64,000 bases of DNA from Planococcus wigleyi (lineage in GTDB: Bacteria > Bacillota > Bacilli > Bacillales_A > Planococcaceae). Position 1 is the first letter of the stretch, and each line of letters opens with the position of its first letter. The notes below the pieces were generated by a model. It saw only the letters and a program-made list of their open reading frames with translations. It did not search any database and was not told the DNA's origin. The stretch spans positions 741,473 through 805,472 of the forward strand of contig NZ_JACSPU010000001.1 of the NCBI RefSeq assembly GCF_014836985.1, written 5' to 3'. Both the position numbers and the translations under genes were made by a program. Positions 23,942 through 41,464 of this stretch are shown here, piece after piece.

Positions 23942-24355
23942 ATGGCATTTGCAACTGTTGCTGAAGTAAAAGAGCGGGTTGCCTTTGATGAAATCAATGA
24001 AATGGCTGAGGTTAAGGTAGCGGATTTGATTGAGCGTGCGGAACGGTGGATTCGAATATTCGCCGGCCGCAACTTTGCCGAAGAGACAGATCCAATCACA
24101 CTGGGAGATCTTCGGAGAGCCGTTGTGCTGCTCGTTGAGTACCTGTGGTTCCAAGACCAGCCGGATATGAAAGAGGAAGCGTTTGACAATGTGCAGTCAG
24201 AGAAAATCGGCTCGTATTCCTACACAAAGAACGCAAAGCCGGGTGAATCAACGGGCGTAGCGGAATTGGACCAGATCCTTTATTCGCTACGTCCTTCTGC
24301 TGCGCTCAAACCGCTCTTCTTCTCCACATTCGGAGCGGGTGGTGGGACTCGATGA
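23942..24355 (+). CDS. Head-tail connector (gp6/YqbG-like)
   Basis: 137 residues. Helical protein with the connector pattern TVAEVKERVAFDEIN, LIERAERWIRIFAGR and LRRAVVLLVEYLWF. Such adaptors dock on the portal as the first head-completion ring. It starts 1 nt after the previous gene and overlaps the next by ATGA. Confidence 0.78.
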   Translation: MAFATVAEVKERVAFDEINEMAEVKVADLIERAERWIRIFAGRNFAEETDPITLGDLRRAVVLLVEYLWFQDQPDMKEEAFDNVQSEKIGSYSYTKNAKPGESTGVAELDQILYSLRPSAALKPLFFSTFGAGGGTR

Positions 24356-24723
24356 GTCTTCGCCGCTTATTGATTCACCTTTGTACGACCGTAACGCCTG
24401 GTCAACAGGTAGGCGAAACCGAATACGGCAAACCGATCTATGGAAATGTCACGAAAGAGAATGTACCTTGCCGCTCCGATTTAGTTCGGCAGTTCAAGTC
24501 TTCGGATATGTACGGCACGGATGCCATGACGACAAATATGCTGTTTCTGAAACCGGATGAAACCTTTTCGGAGGAGACGCGGTTCTCAAACATCCGTGAC
24601 AAGCAAGGCAACATTCTTCTGGAGGGCACCTATTCGGTGGAGGATAGCAAGCCGGCTTATGGTCGCAAGCTGCTCCATCACCATGAAGTCTCTTTGAAGA
24701 AGGAGAGTGATTCAAATGGCTAG
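24352..24723 (+). CDS. Head closure / connector protein
   Basis: 123 residues, beta-rich, with a region VPCRSDLVRQFKSSDMYGTDAMTT resembling head-closure proteins (YqbH-type). The start ATG overlaps the preceding TGA. Position is second after the portal adaptor, as for stoppers that keep DNA inside the head. Assignment mainly by gene order. Confidence 0.65.
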   Translation: MSLRRLLIHLCTTVTPGQQVGETEYGKPIYGNVTKENVPCRSDLVRQFKSSDMYGTDAMTTNMLFLKPDETFSEETRFSNIRDKQGNILLEGTYSVEDSKPAYGRKLLHHHEVSLKKESDSNG

Positions 24724-25126
24724 TGGTGCATTGAACTTCCACTTTCAAATGGATCAAAACATTCTAAGGAATTTCGATGATACGCAAATGAAAGCTGCTC
24801 GGGAAAGAGCGGTTGAAGCAGCGGGCCTGGCCTGGGCGGATGAAACGAAAGAGATTGTTCGAGAGGATAATCACATTGATACCGGTTTATTCGTTAATTC
24901 CATTGGCTACGTGACGACTGGCGGGACAGTGCCTGCAACAGCAAGTGATGTCGTCAATGAGATGACTTCTGAGCGGGACAAAACGACATTGAAAATCGGT
25001 TCGTCCGTCGTCTATGCCGCTCCGTTAGAAAAGAAATACAACATCATGGCACGTGGACTGGATCGAGCTCAAGAGCGGATGCAGCGCGTGGCTGATACGC
25101 AACTCAAAAGAGACTTGAGACTATGA
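24716..25126 (+). CDS. Tail completion protein (HK97 gp10-like)
   Basis: 136 residues. RERAVEAAGLAWADETKEIV, DTGLFVNSIGYV and SSVVYAAPLEKKYNI match the HK97-gp10-like neck/tail completion family (DTG followed by hydrophobics and the YAAPLE motif). ATG 24716 is chosen with AAGGAGAG upstream; GTG 24707 would be too close to the SD. Confidence 0.83.
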   Translation: MASGALNFHFQMDQNILRNFDDTQMKAARERAVEAAGLAWADETKEIVREDNHIDTGLFVNSIGYVTTGGTVPATASDVVNEMTSERDKTTLKIGSSVVYAAPLEKKYNIMARGLDRAQERMQRVADTQLKRDLRL

Positions 25127-25137
25127 GGAGGGGTTAA

Positions 25138-25491
25138 ATGATTGATTACAAGGATCCAATTCCTCCAGTCTATCGATTCTTTAAAAACAATACCGATGTA
25201 CACGTGGACGCGAACACCTTTCAATCCAATATCACAGAGGGCCTGCTCGTCCGCTCTGCGGGCGGTGTAGGCTTTTCTCGTATCCAAATGATCTATCGTT
25301 CCAAGGATGAAGGAGCGGCCATGGCAGGGCTGATTGCTTGTATGAATTTACTGGAGCGAAATGCTTCAAGTATCTCTGAATTAAAAGGCAGTTGGGCTGA
25401 ACGGGACGGGAATCCGATTCCCTCAAAGGATGAGGAGACCGACGCTTTTGAAGCGTGGGTGTACATGAGATTAGAACACATCGAAGCATAG
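25138..25491 (+). CDS. Tail terminator-like protein
   Basis: 117 residues with GAGGAGGGG upstream. Alpha/beta pattern (TFQSNITEGLLVRSAGG; SRIQMIYRSKDEGAAMAGLIACMNLLE; FEAWVYMRLEHIE) resembles tail terminators that cap the tube. Position between gp10-like and tail tube genes supports it. No direct motif is decisive. Confidence 0.65.
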   Translation: MIDYKDPIPPVYRFFKNNTDVHVDANTFQSNITEGLLVRSAGGVGFSRIQMIYRSKDEGAAMAGLIACMNLLERNASSISELKGSWAERDGNPIPSKDEETDAFEAWVYMRLEHIEA

Positions 25492-25503
25492 GAGGAATTG
25501 ACA

Positions 25504-25737
25504 ATGGCAGAAGCAAAGTTGGAAAAGAAAGCACCGGAGCAGCGCAAAATCGTTTGCAAAGGACCGAAAGATAAAGGTAACGGGGCATCCGCTCTTCGTT
25601 TACCACATTTAAGCAAAAAGGATAAGCCGTTTGATATTAGCCAAGGTCAAACGCTTGTGGTCCCTCGGGACATATCCGAAAAAGATGCAGATAAATTGTT
25701 GCAGATGGATTCTTGGAAATTTGAGGAGGTTAAATAA
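25504..25737 (+). CDS. Small tail-region protein (77 aa)
   Basis: ATG 25504 with GGAGGAA upstream. Basic N-terminus (KLEKKAPEQRKIVCKGPKDKG) and a small beta domain (DISQGQTLVVPRDISEKDADKLLQ). The C-terminal pattern resembles the small fold of other head/tail accessory proteins. Function unknown. Confidence 0.58.
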   Translation: MAEAKLEKKAPEQRKIVCKGPKDKGNGASALRLPHLSKKDKPFDISQGQTLVVPRDISEKDADKLLQMDSWKFEEVK

Positions 25738-25739
25738 TT

Positions 25740-26552
25740 ATGACTGATATTTTTAATGTAAATTCAAAGAACTTTGTAGGTGGTCCCGGACGTTTAGTGG
25801 TGGCGGATATGAGCATTGAAGCACCAGAAGCAATCTCAGATGTCATGTCGACTACCGCTCCATATAACTTGACGAGTGGATGGCGTGATCTTGGTGCTAC
25901 TAGTGAGGGCATTGCTATTTCTCGTGGATTCGAAACAGAAGATTTCATGGTTGACCAGGTAATGGGAGCGGCTGACACGGATGTGACTGGCTATAACCAT
26001 ACGCTATCGACAAACTTGGCTGAAAACACAGTAGAAAACCGCAAGTTGGCTTTGGTAGGTGGTCAAATTATCGAAACAGCAGCTGCAGTAGGTACGGAGC
26101 AGGCACTTGCCGGTGCACTGGCAGCAGGCGCACTTAAAGTGACACTGACGACTGAAGATCCTCAATTCAAAGTGGGCGGATGGATTCAACTTGCTGGTGG
26201 CGAACTGAAGAAAATCGCTTCTGTAAACGGTGCAAGCATCGGACTGGAAGTAGGAGTCGAGAAAGCTTATACAGTTGGCGATACCGTGGCTCCAGTCATT
26301 TCACTACCGACCAAACGAATTGGTTACGGTACGGATGGCAACATTCCGGAAAAACGTTATGCGTTGATCAGCCGTCGCAAAGACGGAACTCTTTATATGG
26401 CCGTTATCCGCAAAGCGAAAGTAACCGGCGATGATAAAGAGCAAAGCTTCAGCAAAGAGAAACGTCTATTGCCGCTCTCGCTTGCTGCATACCCAGAAGA
26501 CGGGGCACCACAAAGCGAAAACGTTTATTACGAAATCGAAGAATCCATTTAA
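25740..26552 (+). CDS. Major tail (tube) protein
   Basis: 270 residues with GAGGAGGTTAAATAATT upstream. Features of siphovirus tube proteins: GGPGRLVVADMSIEAPEAIS, WRDLGATSEGIAISRGFETEDF and VIRKAKVTGDDKEQSF. An inserted Ala/Gly-rich segment near residues 105-185 may be an extra domain on the tube surface. Position before the tail assembly chaperones supports the call. Confidence 0.85.
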   Translation: MTDIFNVNSKNFVGGPGRLVVADMSIEAPEAISDVMSTTAPYNLTSGWRDLGATSEGIAISRGFETEDFMVDQVMGAADTDVTGYNHTLSTNLAENTVENRKLALVGGQIIETAAAVGTEQALAGALAAGALKVTLTTEDPQFKVGGWIQLAGGELKKIASVNGASIGLEVGVEKAYTVGDTVAPVISLPTKRIGYGTDGNIPEKRYALISRRKDGTLYMAVIRKAKVTGDDKEQSFSKEKRLLPLSLAAYPEDGAPQSENVYYEIEESI

Positions 26553-26579
26553 TCATAAGAAACGGGAGGCTATACAGCT

Positions 26580-27071
26580 ATGGCAAAGAACAACCTAAAA
26601 TCATTGGATATTACTGAAACGATCGGCAGCATCACTTTAACAGATGGGGAGACGTCAATTGACGTCCCTCGTTTATCTATGAGCAAGATCATCCAAATTG
26701 TGAAATTCATCGGCACCGACGGAATTCGCATTTATAAGCAAATGCGCGAGCTGCTCATGAACGACGAGCTTTCCACTTTTGACCGACTGATCTCTGTTGT
26801 AGATGAATTGAAGGAAGAGCAAGTCATTCGCATTATGGCCATCATCTTGGGCGTTGAAGACAAAGAAGCATTGAAGTTGGATCTTAACGAAGTATTGGAC
26901 GTACTTATTATTCTTTCTGAAAACACCAACCTTGATAAAACTTTTACTCAAGTCCGGACTCTGGCGAAAGTAATGTTCAAAGTGGAAATTCCGGACTTCC
27001 AGACACTGATCCAAGAAAGATTCCCAGCGGCGACGGAAGAGGAAACAGTAGCGGCGGAAGTGAGCGCTTAA
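26580..27071 (+). CDS. Tail assembly chaperone (gpG-like)
   Basis: 163 residues. Helical core (RLSMSKIIQIVKFIGTDGI; VVDELKEEQVIRIMAIIL; NEVLDVLIILSENTNL) typical of tail assembly chaperones that bind the tape measure. It is followed in the -1 frame by an open frame that lacks a start, as in the classical G/GT arrangement. Confidence 0.8.
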   Translation: MAKNNLKSLDITETIGSITLTDGETSIDVPRLSMSKIIQIVKFIGTDGIRIYKQMRELLMNDELSTFDRLISVVDELKEEQVIRIMAIILGVEDKEALKLDLNEVLDVLIILSENTNLDKTFTQVRTLAKVMFKVEIPDFQTLIQERFPAATEEETVAAEVSA

Positions 27072-30400: not shown

Positions 30401-31658
30401 CCCTATGGTCGTTGGAGACGGAACAGGCACCAATGCTGGTCCCGAACTAATTAGAATGCCAGATGGCCGACAGATGCTTTCTCCTTCTAAACCCACGCTG
30501 ATGCACGGAGATAAAGGTACGGAAGTTTGGTCTGCAACCGAAACTCGCAAGATCTTAGAAGCAATTCCTCATTATGCTTTGGGTGACAAAGTGCGTAAGG
30601 CTAAAGATTGGCTTGGCGAAAACGTGTTAGAACCAGCTAAAAGCGTAGGGAGTAAAGTGGTTTCGGGTGCTAAGAAAGTTGGCGGTACAGCGAAAGACTG
30701 GGCGGTTGATATTTTTGATTACGTCAAGAAGCCAGGCAAGCTGCTCGACTTAGCGCTTAGTGCCATGGGCATTAAAGAGCCTGAAGGCGGCAGCTTCATC
30801 GGAAACATTGCCCGCGGTGGTTGGGGCAAAGTTAAAGAAGCCGGGATTGATTTCTTAAAAGGAAAGCTCAATGACTTTGGTGCAAGCCAGAGCGGTATTT
30901 CTTTAACTGGCGGCAACGGAGGCGGATTCGGTCCTCCATTCCGTTTCACTAGTGGACCTGGGCCGCGTAACACGGGTATCCCAGGTGCTTCGTCGAATCA
31001 CAAAGGCTGGGACTGGGCCGCGCCGATTGGAACGCCGATTCCTTCCGTAACGGATGGCGTGGGGCACAGAACAGGATGGCATCCGTTAAGCGGTAACTTT
31101 GTCGAAGTGCGAGACTCTTCCGGCAAGATTCACCGGTACCAGCACAATAGCCGCAACATCATGAAAGTCGGTCAGCCTGTACGTAAAGGTCAGACAGTCG
31201 GTTTGGTTGGAAACACCGGTGTAGGTTCGGGAGCTCATGTTCATTACGAAGTGAAAAGAGGATATGCAAAAGGCGGCATCATAAAAGCGAAGCAACTCGC
31301 TTGGCTTGCGGAAGAAGGAATGGAAGCCGTGATCCCACTTGTCACAAACCGCGATAGAGGTATTGACTTGTGGAGAAAGGTTGGCCAACACTTCGGATTT
31401 GATATGGATGCTATTTTCAATCAAGGTCAAAACCAAATCGACTACACAGGTTCTGCAGTATCGAGCATCGTCAACAAGGTGCCAGGTACGAATGGATCAC
31501 CAGTAGCTGCTGGCTCTGGCCTTACCTTGAACGTAGAGGTTAAACCGTCTCCGGTGTATCTGGATGGGCAACATTTGACAGATATCATATTTGACCATGT
31601 GGATTCTCGTTTCGTTCGACAATCGGAAATTGACGACATATTTAAGGGGAGAGAATAA
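27435..31658 (+). CDS. Tape measure protein with C-terminal M23 peptidase
   Basis: 1407 residues. Helical Arg/Ala/Asn-rich N-terminus, three related blocks of about 46-51 residues around 410-550 (each with a DGQAGRD or DGAKGRS core), hydrophobic helices at about 570-880, and an M23 (LytM) domain near 1186-1275 with NHKGWDW and AHVHYE zinc motifs. The tape measure sets tail length and is ejected; the peptidase would open the cell wall during entry. AAGGAGGA precedes the ATG. It ends by overlapping dit (TAATG). Confidence 0.93.
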   Translation: MATVGRSNIEITADTSRARRSLGDFFREAENGGRNLARMFNTLDPFSRIERDARNASGGFNNVRDAAGRLNSDLNNLGGRNNLDELNGDLSDAERNMDDLHRSTDDVGDGLDDASRDMRDFGNTAERETSNAEGSFGKMADTAKKIGGVLVAAFAVDKVVEFGTELAATAGAAEASRAQFSTVFGDMEGEAAKRLSAIGGEATILENRMKDSFTKIAAFAKTGGMDTADSLDLADRSMRAVADSAAFYDRSLEDTTESLQSFLKGNYENDAALGLSATETTRNSAAMDLYGKKFKDLSEAQKQLTLLQMVEDANKLTGALGQASRESDGWENVVGNMTQAWTDFKGEIGAPVLKVAVAGIKGVTTAVQALNTEAIGNGIGKAFDYVSGSIKKAKDALAPFIDGVKGIAGAIKGLMTDDGQAGRDILKGMGFSEETIMMLDGYAAKIAEFRHKLSDFLAGIGGLFKDDGQAGRDFLASLGLSDDAIAKIDAFAANFSAVRGRLKETIGGFKELLQGDGAKGRSILDGLGFTDGFIQTADDIALKLVSVKNTALDVFGAIAKVVESRGQVIREVITAALILIWPPVKSALSTVLGFLGETIGKIVDFFKSDGAQIVQAVMNLGKIIGVIFLGIFNVIQFIMPAVLAIIRSIWKNIEGVISGALDIIMGAVKIFSGLFTGDFSKMWEGLKRMFLGAVTFLWNFVQLTFFGKILGGAKLFILSFRGFFVSLWQGIISLFKGNTTAALTTISTAWQSILRLTREVFSNLSGFLVNTWNSIRSITTGFINGIKVIFTSGWSIIRNTTTTIFRGIWNFLNGLFVIIRTGIQAYINFYVRFITTGWRAIATTTTNIFRGIWTFLSGIFTTIRNFISSSVSGILSKVRDTWSALRNSTSNTFRDIYNGIKSRFTNIVDLAKSLPGRIGDGIGSMASKVTSGVTKVINKLATTLGKGVNGVIGGINWVLGKIGVDKDIPKWEVPQYAKGTKGNGKHPGGPMVVGDGTGTNAGPELIRMPDGRQMLSPSKPTLMHGDKGTEVWSATETRKILEAIPHYALGDKVRKAKDWLGENVLEPAKSVGSKVVSGAKKVGGTAKDWAVDIFDYVKKPGKLLDLALSAMGIKEPEGGSFIGNIARGGWGKVKEAGIDFLKGKLNDFGASQSGISLTGGNGGGFGPPFRFTSGPGPRNTGIPGASSNHKGWDWAAPIGTPIPSVTDGVGHRTGWHPLSGNFVEVRDSSGKIHRYQHNSRNIMKVGQPVRKGQTVGLVGNTGVGSGAHVHYEVKRGYAKGGIIKAKQLAWLAEEGMEAVIPLVTNRDRGIDLWRKVGQHFGFDMDAIFNQGQNQIDYTGSAVSSIVNKVPGTNGSPVAAGSGLTLNVEVKPSPVYLDGQHLTDIIFDHVDSRFVRQSEIDDIFKGRE

Positions 31659-32470
31659 TGAATCTAATCAGCCTATTTGATGCAGCTGGCAATAAAATAG
31701 ATGTTTCGAAATACGGTCTGACCGGTTCGGGATTGGTCATTCCTTCTCCTTCTTATCGAGAGGAGCGGGATTCCACTCCTGGACGACCAGGAGACATTCT
31801 ATTGGGCAGAGACTTGGAGCCGCGGCAGCTACGAGCGCCGTTCCGAGTGAAGGCCTATGACTATGAGAGTGCACTGCTGGTCCGTGACGAGCTATATGCG
31901 CTGTTCTCTAAGGCAATGTATGTCGGGGAAACCAAACAGCCAGGGAAGTGGTGGAAGGTGCGAATGGTTGAAGGATTTACGCCGGTACGTGTCAGCCCTA
32001 CAGTCTTCAAGATTGATGTTCCATTGCATTGCGAATCCGGTATGGCCGAGTCATTCGGGACTACAGGCGACGCTTTAACATGGGATGTCGACAAGTGGCA
32101 ATGGGGAATGGGCTTATCGCCCGATGAATTTGGCTATGAGAAATCAGCGAGCCGGTTTATCATTCACAATCCTGGAACTGAAACGGTGAATCCGCGGTTC
32201 ATGCCGTTGATCATATCGCTGAAGGGAGTAGCTGCTTCATTTGTGGAAATCATCAATCACACGACTGGTGAAACCTTTTGCTTCAATGGCGCATTGAATG
32301 CTTCAAACACGTTATCACTGAATGGCGTCCGACCTCTCTTGGACGGACTGTCAGAACTGCGAAGAACCAATAAAAAACTAATTACGCTCGCACCGGGCGC
32401 CAATGACATTGAAGTCAAAGGCGTTGCGGTGGAGCGTATTTTCTTTGATTTTAGATTTTATTATGTATAA
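31658..32470 (+). CDS. Distal tail protein (Dit)
   Basis: 270 residues with the Dit layout: N-terminal strand region with SYREERDSTPGRPGDILLG, ALLVRDELYALFSKA, and a C-terminal galectin-like domain (GTETVNPRFMPLIISLKG; NDIEVKGVAVERIFFDFRF). Dit forms the hub between tail tube and the adsorption apparatus. It overlaps the tape measure stop by 1 bp. Confidence 0.85.
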   Translation: MNLISLFDAAGNKIDVSKYGLTGSGLVIPSPSYREERDSTPGRPGDILLGRDLEPRQLRAPFRVKAYDYESALLVRDELYALFSKAMYVGETKQPGKWWKVRMVEGFTPVRVSPTVFKIDVPLHCESGMAESFGTTGDALTWDVDKWQWGMGLSPDEFGYEKSASRFIIHNPGTETVNPRFMPLIISLKGVAASFVEIINHTTGETFCFNGALNASNTLSLNGVRPLLDGLSELRRTNKKLITLAPGANDIEVKGVAVERIFFDFRFYYV

Positions 32471-32487
32471 GGATGGTGGTGAGAAAC

Positions 32488-34326
32488 ATGCAACTTAATC
32501 GAACGCCTAGTGCCTTAACCAAGACCGATCGAGATAATTTGAACAAGAACTGGGATTTGATAGAAGAGGAAGTCAATAGAATTGGCCCTGCTCGCGCACT
32601 TGCTGAATTAGCAAAGATTTCAGCAGAGCAAGCACATTCGGGATTAACTGCAGCAAATAAACGGATTGATACCGTAGCTAGCGAGGCAGCAAATATTGCT
32701 TATGAGCAAGTGGTAGACGCTTCCAAACTAATTTGGAAAGAACCAGTGGGAGCATTCTCCAATCTTGCTACTGCATATCCGCAACCGCAAATTGGATGGG
32801 CAGCACAAACCACCTCAGACGGCGCTGTTTATCGATATGACGGATACACGTGGAAGAAAATTCAGCAAGTTGATGCTGGCCCAGTGAACGCTTTGGATAC
32901 TCGGCTTACCGTACAGGTGGAAAACACAGGGAAAGAAATTTACAAAAGCAAAGAACGTTTGCGGAATAACTTCACCGTTGCCTCCGAAAAGAAAATACCT
33001 GTTGTGACGTTTCTTGATGATGACTCAAGAACGGGAGTTTATACTAGGTTAAAAGAAATCTTCATGAGTAGAGGCGTGCCTTTTTCAATTGCGGCGATCA
33101 CAGGGCGACTTAATGATGCTCACCATCTTACACCGGAACAAATGCACGAATTGGTGGATTTATTAGGATGCGAGATAATGGGTCATACTTTCACTCACCC
33201 TACAGGGAATAACGGACTACAGGAATTCATGAATGACTATTCTCGACTTGAATATGAAATTGGCAACGGTTGTAAGGATGTGTTAATCGCAAAAGGATTC
33301 GATGTTGATGGATTTGTATATCCACAGGGAGGTCATAGTTACGATATTCGGGAAGTGACTAAGAAATACTATTCCTACGCCTTCGCGGGGGTGGGGATTA
33401 ACGATACGGATTTAATGGATTCAATGGCGATTAAACGAATTGCGTTCGGCTTTTCTGCTGAGTTTAACCCAACCATTAATGGAAACAGCGAAAAAAATAC
33501 ATTAGCTTATTATAAGGCTTGCGTAGATTACGCTGTTGCTAATAACGGATGGTTGGTGTTCATGACTCACGTAAACGCGCACAGTCTTGAAGAGGATGTA
33601 ATTTTAGGCCAATTGATTGATTATATTAAATCTATTAATGTGCCTGTTTTAACTGCCAGAGACGGTTACAAAATTCACGGAAATAGATATTTCGCTGGAG
33701 ATGTTGAAACAAACAATTATTTTATCATCAACAAGGACAACAAAGTTTTGAACAGTGAAAGCGGATTGAAAATAACTGAAATCCAGTTCAACAGCAAAAC
33801 TTTGGCGGATCCGATTGACTCGTATGAGAAAGGAAGCATCACCTTCATGCGAGTCACCAATGCTCATGCTTCCGCGAACGGTTTTCCTTCCGGGGTCGGT
33901 GGTTATTTGGTGACGTATAAGATGCACGAATCCAATTCCCTGTATAACCGACAGGAGTATTGGCCATTGACGAATCCAGACACATATACCCGGCATCTGA
34001 ATGGCTCCAACAATACCTGGAGTGAGTTTTTCGTGACGATTAATTCGCGAAACATCGCCGGTTTCAATCCAACAAAGAAGGCAAGGCTTGCGGTTCCGGC
34101 AATTACCGTGCCGCCTAATTCAACCGCAGATATCACTGTACCTCTTGCTGGGATTACAGCCACGAATACGCAAATAAACGTTAGTCCATCCTGGGGATTG
34201 GATCCAGGACTGCTGAGCGATGCGTTGATTATGGCAAACGACCAAGCGACAATCCGCGTACTAAACATCACCAGTACTGAAAAAACCGTGACTGCTCGGA
34301 ATTGGGTTTTCACTTATATGACATAA
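32488..34326 (+). CDS. Tail fibre with polysaccharide deacetylase domain
   Basis: About 612 residues. A helical N-terminal attachment region (ALTKTDRDNLNKNWDLIEEE) is followed by a NodB-type deacetylase domain: VVTFLDDDSR (Asp near 175), a HTFTH motif near 233, YPQGGHSYD and VFMTHVN. The C-terminal part is beta-rich and likely binds the receptor. The enzyme would remove acetyl groups from a cell-surface glycan during adsorption. ATG 32488 is favoured by GGTGGTGAG upstream; ATG 32473 is an alternative. A phage O-antigen-polymerase-like gene follows. Confidence 0.85.
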   Translation: MQLNRTPSALTKTDRDNLNKNWDLIEEEVNRIGPARALAELAKISAEQAHSGLTAANKRIDTVASEAANIAYEQVVDASKLIWKEPVGAFSNLATAYPQPQIGWAAQTTSDGAVYRYDGYTWKKIQQVDAGPVNALDTRLTVQVENTGKEIYKSKERLRNNFTVASEKKIPVVTFLDDDSRTGVYTRLKEIFMSRGVPFSIAAITGRLNDAHHLTPEQMHELVDLLGCEIMGHTFTHPTGNNGLQEFMNDYSRLEYEIGNGCKDVLIAKGFDVDGFVYPQGGHSYDIREVTKKYYSYAFAGVGINDTDLMDSMAIKRIAFGFSAEFNPTINGNSEKNTLAYYKACVDYAVANNGWLVFMTHVNAHSLEEDVILGQLIDYIKSINVPVLTARDGYKIHGNRYFAGDVETNNYFIINKDNKVLNSESGLKITEIQFNSKTLADPIDSYEKGSITFMRVTNAHASANGFPSGVGGYLVTYKMHESNSLYNRQEYWPLTNPDTYTRHLNGSNNTWSEFFVTINSRNIAGFNPTKKARLAVPAITVPPNSTADITVPLAGITATNTQINVSPSWGLDPGLLSDALIMANDQATIRVLNITSTEKTVTARNWVFTYMT

Positions 34327-34347
34327 GTTCCAAAACTCAGGAAAACA

Positions 34348-34376
34348 TTGCCTAATACATTATAGATATATATAAT
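34348..34376 (+). promoter_or_regulatory. Private promoter of the O-antigen polymerase-like gene
   Basis: TTGCCT (34348-34353), exactly 17 bp, then a perfect TATAAT (34371-34376). It lies in an 86-bp gap within the otherwise continuous tail operon, so the next gene can be expressed without the late promoter. An imperfect inverted repeat around 34361-34396 spans the -10. Confidence 0.75.
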
Positions 34377-34412
34377 TACACGTATATCTCTATAAGAAGG
34401 CTGTGAACATTT

Positions 34413-35618
34413 TTGAAAATAGTATTTGTTTCGTTGTTGCTGGTTTTGTTTTTCTTTAGTTCTTATCGAATGGTCGGAGAAAATGTTGCTGTAGGAGCTT
34501 ATGGCGCCTATGCAACATATCTGTTAATAATAACCGCCCTTCTGCTTTTTAAGGTGAAAAAGGTGGAGTTCAATAAATCATTGCTGATACTAGCTGGTTT
34601 ATTCTCTTTTACCGCCATGATGTCTGCTTTTTTTAATTCCGAAATCGGATTATTAGTTCAATCAGTCATCTTCTTCTGCTTGTTTTTATCAACAACTGTA
34701 TTGCTTCAAACCTATTTTAAGGGGACTCTCGGTAAGATGATTGTGCTTACACTTGTAATCGCGCATGTTCCATTAGTTTTAATACCTTTATTGACAGGTG
34801 GAATGGTGATGTTTCCATACAGAGGGATTTTCGATAACCCCAATTCTTTCGGAATGGTTACTGCTACTGTTTTTTCTGTTTTGCTAGGTGCTTTGCTATC
34901 GAAAATTGATAGAGTTGTATTCTATAAAGAAAAACCTTCTAAGTTAAATATACTCATCTTTTTCGCTTTGGCGGTATCTAGTTTTTCATTAATTGTTATC
35001 TCTGCAAGCAGAACGAGTTTCACAACTGCGATAATATCTACTTTCGCAGGGTTGGCAGTTATGTTTTTGTTTTCTATAAAACATAGAAGAGTTCTAAAAA
35101 TGACTTACAAGTTGGTTCTCAGCTTACCTTTCGTAGCTGTTTTTTATTTCTTGATAAACAAAGTAATACCAGTAAACCTTTATGTTCAAGCTGTTATTTT
35201 CAGCAAGTTCGAACGAAAAAGTGGAGATTTGTTAGATGGAAGAACTAGGGTGTGGATAGAAACAATTAGAGATGCCAATCCATTTGGTCACGGTGAACAA
35301 TACTTTGAAAGGCAAATAGGCTTAGGTGCTCACAATACTTTCATCTATATCATTGGAGTCTATGGTTGGATTCCCTCTATTTTATTCATTTCTTTCTTTA
35401 TTGCGGCTTTGTATTATTGTATACGTTTCGTATTAAATTCTGATTATGAATATAAATATCTGCCGTTAATAACATTGATAACGTTCTTAGGGTTATCGAT
35501 GGCAGAAAATCAAATGTTTAAAATAGCGATGATCGTGGCTTTTGCCTGTTTAGGGCTTGCAGCTAACAACAAAAAAATAATTTTAACTAAGAGTGCTAAG
35601 GACCATACTGTCCGGTAA
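34413..35618 (+). CDS. O-antigen ligase/polymerase-like membrane protein (Wzy/WaaL family), cargo gene
   Basis: 401 residues with about ten hydrophobic segments. Three signature spots of the Wzy_C family are visible: SASRTSF near residue 197, DGRTRVW near 274 and GAHNTFIYIIGVYGW near 303. Such proteins join or polymerise lipid-linked glycans on the outer membrane face. It is AT-rich, has its own promoter and a terminator, and splits the tail operon between fibre and tip genes. The TTG start has AGAAGG 12 nt upstream, which is weak. Inferred role: lysogenic conversion of the surface polysaccharide and superinfection exclusion. The substrate is unknown. Confidence 0.8.
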   Translation: MKIVFVSLLLVLFFFSSYRMVGENVAVGAYGAYATYLLIITALLLFKVKKVEFNKSLLILAGLFSFTAMMSAFFNSEIGLLVQSVIFFCLFLSTTVLLQTYFKGTLGKMIVLTLVIAHVPLVLIPLLTGGMVMFPYRGIFDNPNSFGMVTATVFSVLLGALLSKIDRVVFYKEKPSKLNILIFFALAVSSFSLIVISASRTSFTTAIISTFAGLAVMFLFSIKHRRVLKMTYKLVLSLPFVAVFYFLINKVIPVNLYVQAVIFSKFERKSGDLLDGRTRVWIETIRDANPFGHGEQYFERQIGLGAHNTFIYIIGVYGWIPSILFISFFIAALYYCIRFVLNSDYEYKYLPLITLITFLGLSMAENQMFKIAMIVAFACLGLAANNKKIILTKSAKDHTVR

Positions 35619-35640
35619 CAAAAGCTAAATAACCAAACCA

Positions 35641-35671
35641 AAGAGTGTCCAATCGGGCGCTCTTTTTTCTA
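35641..35671 (+). terminator. Terminator of the O-antigen polymerase-like gene
   Basis: AGAGTGTCC-aatc-GGGCGCTCT (with G-U pairs) followed by TTTTTT, 23 bp past the stop. It would also reduce late read-through into the tail tip gene. Confidence 0.7.
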
Positions 35672-35692
35672 TGCAGAAAAAGAGGTGAAAAC

Positions 35693-37975
35693 ATGCTGTC
35701 AGTCCGGAATCTAGCAGGACAGGAAGAATTATTAACCGACTTTAAAGCGCTTAACCGGAGTAAGAAAGTCAATGGAGAGAAGATGCTTACGCTTTCTGCA
35801 TTCCCAACAGAAAATAACGTTCATGCTTATCCGTTGATAGAGGAAGAATCAATCATCACCTTCAAAGACGAGGAATACGTCATCAAAAAGTATGGCGGAC
35901 GTAGCATAGGCAATACGTTCATGAAGCAGGTAGACGCTATCCATAAATTCTTTCCGGACATGATGGACAACCGGCAGCGGAAAGTTCATAACGGATCCAT
36001 GACGTTTGCAGCTGCCTGTCAGTTTGTCTTTGAAGACTCAGGCTATACCTTCGCAATCATCGACACCTTTAATGCTAAGGAGTTCGAAAACTTCGGTGGC
36101 AACAATCGACTGGCTTTGCTGCAGACGCTTCTAGATCGCTTCCAAGCAGAAATGGAGATTGTCGGGAAACAAGTTCGATTCAAGAAGAAAATCGGCGTGG
36201 ATACAGACTTCCAGTTCCGTTATGGCCATAACATCAAAACATTCAGTCGGGATGTTGATACGTCCAATCTATCCACCTATATTAAAGGATACGGGAAGAA
36301 GAAAGAAGAAACCGACGTCATCAGCGGCGTCAGTATTCCTTATGGCAGCCGCGCTGGAACATACTTCACAGAACCCGGATTAAATGTCCTGGCAACAAAT
36401 AAGGAAGGCGCCATTTTCAGATTTTCCTTCACAGGTACTGGATTTGATTTTGATGCCATATTGACCAAGCTTGGGGGCGTATGGGAGTTTTCTATTGATG
36501 GCTCTCAAGCCGTTAAGGTTTCGACCTATAAAGATCTATCACGCGAAGACAAGGTGATGCCGGTCATTCGTGGTCTTGAGCATAAACTGCATAACGTGGT
36601 GGCCACATTTGTGGGGGCTGATACGAAGAATCCTTATACGAAAGGAAAAGGAGCTCCGGCGCCGATTGCTTACCTGAAGAGCGGGAACATCATCAAGCTC
36701 TATCGGGAACTGGTAGGGGACGAGCAGTATATGGCCGTTGCTGAATACACCAGTCCCAACGCAGAGCTTTACGGGATACGGGATGCAGGTGACTTTGAGG
36801 ATGAACGATTTACTACTAACGCAACCTTATTAGCCGAGATTAAGAAGCAGCTGCAGGACACGCCAGAGCTTTCTTACACCATTGACTTTGTGGATTTACG
36901 AGCTGCCGGTTATCCTAATCCGTCACCGAATGAAGGGGACCGAGTCTTCACCATTTATGAGCCGATGGATGATTTGGAAGTTGAGACTCGCTTGATGGAA
37001 GTGAACGAGGAATTTGTTCCCGATTGGGATACGCCAGGGGAAGTAAAGCCGATCCGCAGCAAAGTGACATTGGCCAACTACACCAAGACGTTCTCCGGCA
37101 CTATGTACAGCAACGTCCAGAAGACGCTCAAGGGAATCGTGAACGATGATGGCATCATCAAATACAACGTCTTGGACGAAGCAGTCCGCTTGGCTACGGA
37201 GGCGATTAAGTCTGCTCAGACTGAGTTGGAATTCATCAATGGCATCACAGGCCGCGATAAGGAAGACCCTAATCTTCTTACTCGTTTCACCAGTCGAGGT
37301 GTGGGTGTTTCCAGTGATGGAGGAAATACGTTCCCTGATGCCATTACAGGGCTTGGTGTAAATACAACCCTATTGACTGCCGGAGCCATTCACACGAATA
37401 ACATCGCCATTATCGGAGACAGTTTATTCTTCTGGGATGGTAGTGGGTTCCATTGTATCGATCCGAACGATTTGAATAAGTACGTGAAAATTACGGGTGG
37501 CCATGTTGACATCAAACGAGGTGCGCTAACGGTGGAACGGCCCGATGGATACAAAATAATCAATAACGGCATGAGCGTATATGACGTTAATATCCAATCA
37601 GCTACACCGGCATTTAAAAGCGGGTCTGTTGGGATTGAAGGCTATTATCTGAGAACTGCTATGGAGTCTCCGCAGGATTGCGATTTCTACACGTATGAAC
37701 ACAAGGCGCGCTATTTAAAGGTACGGGTAAATTTAGTCGCCACTGCCGGCGGAACTGCAACTGTCTCGATTGAAAAAGGATCTTATGCTCTCGGGAATAT
37801 TGAGGTGCTCGCGAGTTATTCAACACAAAGTGACAATAGAGAGACCTCGCATACTTTCACCGTCGATTTAGGCGTTCCTCAAGGTGGTGAGGGAAGTTTT
37901 TATATTCGCTTAAAAACATCAAACAGCGCTTATCCGGCACTGGTCCGGGTGAGTAGAATGTGGCTGGAGGGCTGA
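35693..37975 (+). CDS. Tail tip / tail-associated protein (Tal-like, prophage endopeptidase tail)
   Basis: 760 residues. The N-terminal 380 residues match the prophage tail (Tal/gp44-like) fold: MLSVRNLAGQEELLTDF, FTIYEPMDDLEVETRLMEV later, and KYVKI-type strands. The central and C-terminal parts are beta-rich (DGTFP-type loops; ETSHTFTVDLG) as in receptor-binding extensions. ATG 35693 has GAGGTGAA upstream; the earlier start at 35645 would lie in the terminator. It forms the tail tip hub. Confidence 0.85.
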   Translation: MLSVRNLAGQEELLTDFKALNRSKKVNGEKMLTLSAFPTENNVHAYPLIEEESIITFKDEEYVIKKYGGRSIGNTFMKQVDAIHKFFPDMMDNRQRKVHNGSMTFAAACQFVFEDSGYTFAIIDTFNAKEFENFGGNNRLALLQTLLDRFQAEMEIVGKQVRFKKKIGVDTDFQFRYGHNIKTFSRDVDTSNLSTYIKGYGKKKEETDVISGVSIPYGSRAGTYFTEPGLNVLATNKEGAIFRFSFTGTGFDFDAILTKLGGVWEFSIDGSQAVKVSTYKDLSREDKVMPVIRGLEHKLHNVVATFVGADTKNPYTKGKGAPAPIAYLKSGNIIKLYRELVGDEQYMAVAEYTSPNAELYGIRDAGDFEDERFTTNATLLAEIKKQLQDTPELSYTIDFVDLRAAGYPNPSPNEGDRVFTIYEPMDDLEVETRLMEVNEEFVPDWDTPGEVKPIRSKVTLANYTKTFSGTMYSNVQKTLKGIVNDDGIIKYNVLDEAVRLATEAIKSAQTELEFINGITGRDKEDPNLLTRFTSRGVGVSSDGGNTFPDAITGLGVNTTLLTAGAIHTNNIAIIGDSLFFWDGSGFHCIDPNDLNKYVKITGGHVDIKRGALTVERPDGYKIINNGMSVYDVNIQSATPAFKSGSVGIEGYYLRTAMESPQDCDFYTYEHKARYLKVRVNLVATAGGTATVSIEKGSYALGNIEVLASYSTQSDNRETSHTFTVDLGVPQGGEGSFYIRLKTSNSAYPALVRVSRMWLEG

Positions 37976-41321: not shown

Positions 41322-41464
41322 TGAGTAAAACATAAGTACGGATATTTGCGGACGATAAAAATCCCTATTATATAGTAGAAACTCGATTTTCAGACATTTA
41401 AAAATCATTTCGCATAATGGTGGATTTAGTAAAACTTACGACAAGTGTAAAACCCATTAATAAT
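41322..41464. other. Probable prophage/chromosome junction zone
   Basis: No gene with a good start is seen here; the right attachment site most likely lies in this stretch, between the last phage gene and the terminator at 41465. The exact core cannot be defined without attL. Confidence 0.4.

Follow-up and report, generated by a model that had tools for sequence, protein, structure and literature searches.

A predicted surface-glycan polymerase gene behind the tail fibre gene of a Planococcus prophage

Why would a phage carry a gene for a polytopic membrane protein between two of its tail genes? The question is raised by a 64,000-nucleotide stretch of the Planococcus wigleyi genome (contig NZ_JACSPU010000001.1, positions 741,473 to 805,472), which we call the window and from whose first letter positions are counted. 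A prophage in this window has an open reading frame (ORF) at 34413-35618, between the genes for a tail fibre and for the tail tip protein Tal. The reading we favor, with a probability of roughly 0.56, is that this gene is optional cargo lodged behind a fibre gene, and that its product, a predicted glycan polymerase of the WaaL/Wzy fold, alters the surface polysaccharide of the host and blocks the adsorption of phages with the same type of fibre. The gene and its neighbors are as follows.

31658..32470, plus strand: Dit, distal tail protein (Pfam Sipho_tail E 6.6e-11; phrog_33 Dit E 2e-37)
32473..34326, plus strand: tail fibre with a CE4-type polysaccharide deacetylase domain, the partner of the cargo gene (PF01522 E 1.3e-4; structure model)
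34395..34400, plus strand: Shine-Dalgarno-like AGAAGG (sequence)
34413..35618, plus strand: cargo gene for a Wzy/WaaL-fold polytopic membrane protein of 401 aa, predicted surface-glycan polymerase (ORF)
35693..37975, plus strand: Tal, tail tip protein (PF06605 E 4.4e-48; sequence)

The gene product and its fold

A first-pass annotation had described a 401-residue ORF with the motifs SASRTSF, DGRTRVW and GAHNTF, placed between a deacetylase-type fibre and Tal. All three motifs are found in the protein, and the place is as described, with a CE4-type fibre (by its model and a PF01522 match just under the Pfam cut-off) on one side and a PF06605 Tal on the other. The gene follows the fibre gene after a gap of 86 nucleotides (nt). 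It starts with TTG, 12 nt behind the AGAAGG box, and its reading frame is intact, without stops. The key residues of the protein form the core of its family. Among the aligned members, the window protein included, R200 is kept in 49/49, R277 in 48/49, H307 in 49/49 and E365 in 48/48, and homologues of 27-56% identity retain the same residues. The last helix reaches residue 384 of 401. The protein stops soon after it and has no TPR match, and a C-terminal soluble or TPR extension is thus absent.

The annotation had assigned the protein to the Wzy/WaaL group, and both fold and family bear this out. When the predicted structure was searched against the PDB, the O-antigen ligase WaaL was the sole match to reach E 0.001, and the WaaL fold covers the full length of the protein. 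An unrelated transporter was considered and rejected, because WaaL alone reached E 0.001 in that search. The Pfam family Wzy_C (PF04932) is matched by 12 of 15 and by 45 of 49 aligned homologues, counted at E up to 0.1 rather than by the curated cut-off; the window protein is not among them. The His/Arg/Glu set of the window protein corresponds to those of WaaL and PglS by order and spacing alone. Comparison with solved chains by sequence gave chance rows for the window protein and nothing for the profile. Taken together, the enzyme class is well supported. A polymerase is predicted, though a ligase would have the same fold, and the match to WaaL, the best-ranked solved relative, cannot separate the two.

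Optional cargo behind fibre and spike genes

A relative of Tal occurs in 8 of the 46 genomes of the genus, one being the window genome itself. The polymerase gene is absent from the place between Dit and Tal in all seven of the other prophages. Dit abuts Tal in four of them (L011, L053, L055, L057), and a fifth (L056) has no ORF of 80 aa between Dit, which was read by eye, and Tal. A fibre with a GDSL/SGNH hydrolase domain fills the slot in the remaining two (L052, 10192-11793; L054, 5473-7836), without a polymerase. The place in front of Tal is a variable fibre slot across prophages of the genus. A search with the family profile (A1) found a match at E 1e-10 in 1 of the 46 genomes. The gene has a GC content of 0.35, compared to 0.43-0.49 in its three neighbors.

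Five homologues, from five genera, are read as phage-borne. Besides the window gene, they come from Natribacillus halophilus (L018, on a contig that is also an uncultivated virus genome in IMG/VR), a metagenome-assembled genome (MAG) of Sporosarcina psychrophila (L020), Solibacillus sp. FSL H8-0523 (L038, genome G207) and Paenibacillus sabinae (L061, genome G799). Loci L021, L058 and L059 are the L018 contig, and L020, L024 and L062 are one Sporosarcina contig; each contig was counted once. All five genes lie on the same strand as a fibre or spike gene and immediately 3′ of it, with gaps of 64-111 nt. The link to the fibre gene noted in the window therefore recurs in four more prophages. At all five loci the gene is AT-richer than its surroundings: gene GC contents of 0.33 (Natribacillus), 0.31 (Sporosarcina), 0.28 (Solibacillus) and 0.34 (Paenibacillus) compare with 0.44, 0.36, 0.38 and 0.48 for the respective loci, gene included. 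A terminator-like stem stands 3′ of the gene in the window and in three of the four other loci.

The phages concerned differ in their tails. The window and the Natribacillus locus have Dit/Tal modules of siphovirus type. The Solibacillus locus encodes baseplate wedge and tail fibre proteins (phrog_6 E 4e-68, phrog_2126 E 5e-18), and we read it as a myovirus. The Paenibacillus locus, with a portal, a major head protein and one protein with both tail fibre and tail spike matches, we read as a podovirus. The partners differ as well: a CE4 deacetylase in the window, pectate-lyase-like proteins in Natribacillus (PF12708 E 1.6e-13) and Paenibacillus (tail spike PHROG phrog_2234 E 2.4e-12), and a fibre type common to Sporosarcina and Solibacillus (26% identity, E 1e-22). 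We read this last type as a beta-propeller; the Solibacillus fibre has a sub-threshold GH32 match.

More distant homologues live elsewhere. The context of 14 others was read, one in Evansella tamaricis (L019) and the rest in 13 genomes that belong to a single other genus in the family, and all 14 lie in polysaccharide gene clusters. Neighbors were assigned by eye and checked in three loci (L041, L039, L019). L041 has CpsB/CapC (E 3.8e-59), Wzz (E 1.8e-17) and a glycosyltransferase beside the gene, and flippases adjoin it in L039 and L019. A quick tree built from 61 proteins places the five phage rows together in a group of 38 rows (SH-aLRT 88), outside which lie the 13 polysaccharide-locus rows that were included; one label change accounts for these 18 rows. 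For this tree, P0018, P0022, P0024 and P0010 were exchanged for the locus copies of the same proteins, and P0049 (too distant) and L048 (which starts like L047) were left out.

The low GC content, the absence from 7/7 prophages of the genus with a related Tal and the profile match in 1 of 46 genomes make the cargo status that the annotation had proposed well supported. The gene, sought at the same place in related prophages, is very unlikely to be a normal member of the tail module.

The family is sparse in the databases. Genome searches found a match in 3 of 100 relatives, 16 of 261 genomes of the family, 3/398 and 2/398 in two draws of the class, and 1 of 394 genomes in the family of genome G061; a further search of three genomes only gave 0/3. 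Both protein searches with the family scored just the 7996 candidates that shared most words. Neither tblastn of four family members against 50,697 phage records nor tblastn of one member against 72,556 plasmids gave a match, and blastn of window positions 32000-37000, seeking an origin in the phage database, gave nothing. A scan of viral_contigs with seven queries returned one locus, the Natribacillus contig.

Proposed receptor conversion and its rivals

Receptor conversion is the function we propose for the product of the gene. The lysogen would make the protein, which would sit in the lysogen membrane. It would take undecaprenyl-diphosphate-linked repeat units, made by the glycosyltransferases and flippases of the host, and join them by a linkage or to a chain length differing from that of the host polymerase. 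Unconverted polymer would be what the fibre, in the window a CE4-type deacetylase, recognizes or trims, and the changed surface would no longer serve it. Conversion would thus shield both the lysogen and newly released virions from re-adsorption.

Such repeat units are plausibly available, because the host has flippases and sugar-synthesis genes in a cluster on contig C10. Flippase-type matches above the PF01943 cut-off number six in the host genome, and three lie at 334,705-347,994 of that contig, together with a DegT-type aminotransferase, a glycosyltransferase, a nucleotidyl transferase, a GDP-mannose 4,6-dehydratase and a ManC-type protein. Around these three flippases, the region from 318000 to 357800 (L071, L072) forms a large cluster of host polysaccharide genes. 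Across the host genome, no gene but the one in the prophage gives a PF04932-like match. A 459-aa membrane protein without a Pfam match (L072:14132-15511) may be the host's own polymerase, a guess from its position.

Temperate phages of Gram-negative bacteria are known for seroconversion by polymerases. In Gram-positive phages, to our knowledge, surface glycans are converted by glycosyltransferases such as TarP, which is not a polymerase-type WaaL fold. The prophage-encoded TarP of Staphylococcus aureus resembles our case in changing a Gram-positive surface glycopolymer, as described in the abstract of PMC9650247. It differs in being a glycosyltransferase that decorates the polymer, in that case wall teichoic acid.

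The closest parallels are the beta-polymerases of Salmonella phage epsilon15 and Pseudomonas phage D3. The annotation of epsilon15 (AY150271) shows a phage Wzy directly adjoining the tailspike gene and a terminator between the two, and this Wzy-beta has a Wzy_C domain (excerpts of PMC4815439). However, the epsilon15 genes are antisense to the spike gene and include a 67-codon gene for an inhibitor of the alpha-polymerase, whereas the window gene lies on the strand of the fibre; its hosts are Gram-positive, as are those of the other loci, and the sequence profiles do not match. For the temperate phage D3 (oac, iap, wzy-beta), the annotation (AF165214) has a Wzy downstream from a gene that resembles a putative tail fibre gene. 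Unlike the window gene, it is one of three genes, is antisense, stands at a distance of about 2.5 kb from this fibre-like gene, and targets O-antigen. A predicted phage Wzy next to a fibre or spike gene, one mark of the D3/epsilon15 type, is found in the window and at the four other loci. By analogy, the window protein may work like these beta-polymerases, though it lacks two marks of their cassette type, the nearby inhibitor and sequence homology.

The inhibitor may not be strictly needed. WzyPh1 of Acinetobacter baumannii occurs in several different prophages and overrides the host linkage (excerpts of PMC9241936); the likeness to the window gene is drawn from that description, in which no fibre neighborhood is mentioned, and the polymer is a Gram-negative capsule. 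The prophage Wzy replaces the capsule linkage there, and the authors do not decide between a phage-encoded suppressor and better expression as the cause of the dominance (same excerpts).

One phage locus offers a side observation. Arthrobacter phage Faja (MH834612, L081) has two genes annotated as hypothetical, gp34 and gp35 (24313-26770), antisense between tail/esterase genes and the integrase. They encode an acyltransferase-3 (PF01757 E 2.9e-28) and, at 27.0 bits against a cut-off of 31.7, a Wzy_C-like protein; oac and wzy-beta of D3 are enzymes of these same two types. The pair is likely an unrecognized conversion locus in an actinobacterial phage. Among phage records, gp35 matches just the two Faja records. 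BLASTP finds no significant likeness between gp35 and the window protein (E 1.1), and only fold and Wzy_C link the two.

Several findings weigh against receptor conversion by a Wzy-type polymerase. First come the scores of the window protein itself. Its superposition on WaaL (PDB 7tpg), in a re-check restricted to Foldseek's own matches, gives 11% identity and a root-mean-square deviation (rmsd) of 5.0; hmmscan gives no Pfam (E 0.1), PHROG or NCBIfam match; and in the genome search its Wzy_C score of 28.1 bits is below the 31.7 cut-off. Second come the marks of the known systems. In hhalign, the match between the family and D3 plus epsilon15 Wzy-beta is not significant (probability 0.2%, from a two-sequence profile only), and no Iap-like small hydrophobic ORF (25-80 aa) with a Shine-Dalgarno word was found at the five genes in 1.65-1.9 kb each. 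Third, the phage loci are uneven. The Sporosarcina contig is a 4.6-kb MAG piece, whose phage nature is suggested by PHROG matches mostly without a named function and by the likeness of its fibre to that of Solibacillus; the Solibacillus locus has no terminator-like stem behind the gene; and in the four loci other than the window, 258-479 of 1000 shuffles reach the best promoter site. The five fibres are of at least three types, and therefore a fibre and its polymerase need not travel together when genes are exchanged. Fourth, the group branch of the quick tree has an SH-aLRT of just 88, with an outgroup that is not one side of a branch, and gene context was read for 5 of the 38 rows in the group holding all phage members, so that calling it a phage group extrapolates from those five. 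Finally, with a single protein as query, another genome of the genus, G011, matches weakly at E 4.6e-7 and 28% identity.

The strongest rival, though we judge it unlikely, is a glycan polymerase with a general surface benefit, such as in biofilm formation, desiccation or protist grazing, for which the fibre site would be a permissive insertion point between transcription units. Fibre borders are indeed known sites of phage cargo, the Dit-Tal slot is variable anyway, and fibre types differ among the loci. Against this, the gene stands at a fibre or spike border in 5/5 different phages, and the converting polymerase of epsilon15 occupies the same neighborhood.

Slightly less probable again is that the protein, with this fold, acts as a ligase or oligosaccharyltransferase, which would join finished glycans to a cell-wall polymer or to an S-layer or surface protein without polymerization. 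The top fold match is itself a ligase, and Wzy_C is likewise found in PglS (excerpts of PMC12800693) and in WsaB and WsfB, two predicted S-layer O-oligosaccharyltransferases from Bacillota (excerpts of PMC2943079). WaaL shares its fold and, by order, the His/Arg/Glu set with the window protein, yet at 11% identity, and it ligates O-antigen to the lipid A core, which is absent in Gram-positives. WsfB combines Wzy_C with a TPR motif, as described in the same excerpts of PMC2943079 (for WsaB it is possibly in the neighboring WsaA), whereas the window protein has no such extension and has tail genes for neighbors. The distant homologues, moreover, belong to loci for polysaccharide synthesis, where CpsB/CapC and Wzz genes adjoin them.

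The two other explanations are very improbable. A dead or never-expressed passenger would fit the TTG start and the weak promoter, but the frame is intact and the key residues are kept, also in the homologues 27-56% identical. Least probable is a virion or tail-assembly membrane protein and normal part of the tail module, as the position within the tail operon might suggest: the gene is absent in 7/7 relatives of the genus with this Tal type, its product has the WaaL fold, homologues occur in phages of other tail types, and 0 of 49 family members match a PHROG.

We return to receptor conversion. A fibre-linked WaaL/Wzy-fold gene in Bacillota phages is cargo of a kind known from the Gram-negative phages epsilon15 and D3. 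Among the literature matches listed (titles and abstract starts, mostly of non-subscription literature), there was no report of such a gene in a Gram-positive phage. It is tempting to speculate, at somewhat less than even odds, that fibre and polymerase form an exchangeable pair in Gram-positive phages, with the polymerase rewriting the very polysaccharide that the fibre recognizes or trims. Such a receptor-matched superinfection-exclusion module would have entered sipho-, myo- and podovirus-like phages on repeated occasions and would so far be absent from phage protein catalogues. If true, polymerase-type conversion would extend to Bacillota, and looking behind the fibre would become a genomic rule that pairs a phage's receptor glycan with its exclusion enzyme. 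Which glycan a fibre reads would then be a question for a knock-out and nuclear magnetic resonance.

Transcription signals, fibre and prophage ends

The first-pass annotation had also given the gene a private promoter and terminator.

34348..34376, plus strand: promoter-like site TTGCCT-17-TATAAT (10/12 matches; suggestive only)
35640..35665, plus strand: intrinsic terminator-like stem of 11 pairs followed by a T-run (sequence scan)

Both signals are present, and the stem begins 21 nt behind the end of the gene, but the promoter is weak: when the 86-nt gap is put through 1000 dinucleotide shuffles, a score this high turns up 45 times. A private promoter is therefore suggestive at most. No conserved promoter was found by consensus score across the five upstream gaps, and the other four loci have no comparable signal; extended -10 boxes in the Natribacillus, Sporosarcina and Solibacillus loci were noticed by eye, and we make no claim for them. 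A scan of positions 33000-37000 gave 6 promoter-like sites (9.6 expected) and 4 terminator-like stems (3.4 expected). These counts are within chance, and the weight therefore rests on position and stem length. The ORF finder calls Tal from GTG 35645, inside the terminator stem. The start is most likely ATG 35693, which has GAGGTG upstream.

An AlphaFold 2 model of the partner fibre (pLDDT 81.6, pTM 0.50) clearly matches CE4 deacetylases (7ax7 E 1.5e-7; 7fbw E 1.2e-6). It also matches R-pyocin fibres (6cl6 E 6.8e-6), with a poor superposition (rmsd about 50). The Haloferax tailed virus 1 turret protein (8qpg, E 9.3e-9) gives the top structural match and ranks above the bacterial CE4 deacetylases. 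In an alignment of 33 rows (A6; the window and 32 of 46 homologues), the CE4-type residues D183 and D184 are invariant, and D182 and H238 are nearly so.

The prophage is integrated, about 44.4 kb long, and includes genes for RecT, a large terminase, a Phage_Mu_F head protein, a tail tube, Dit, Tal and an amidase. A 26-bp direct repeat probably marks its ends as att sites.

G000:C10:738480-738505: left copy of the 26-bp direct repeat, overlapping a succinyl-CoA ligase gene (PF00549 E 4.9e-24) at its 3′ end
41437..41462, no strand: right copy of the 26-bp direct repeat, probable attR (repeat search)

We read the succinyl-CoA ligase gene as sucD. A phage integrase gene (PF00589 E 1.2e-28, L073:16594-17796) lies beside the left copy. 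To the right of the prophage are genes whose Pfam families are those of dprA, topA and trmFO/gidA, and the right copy precedes dprA.
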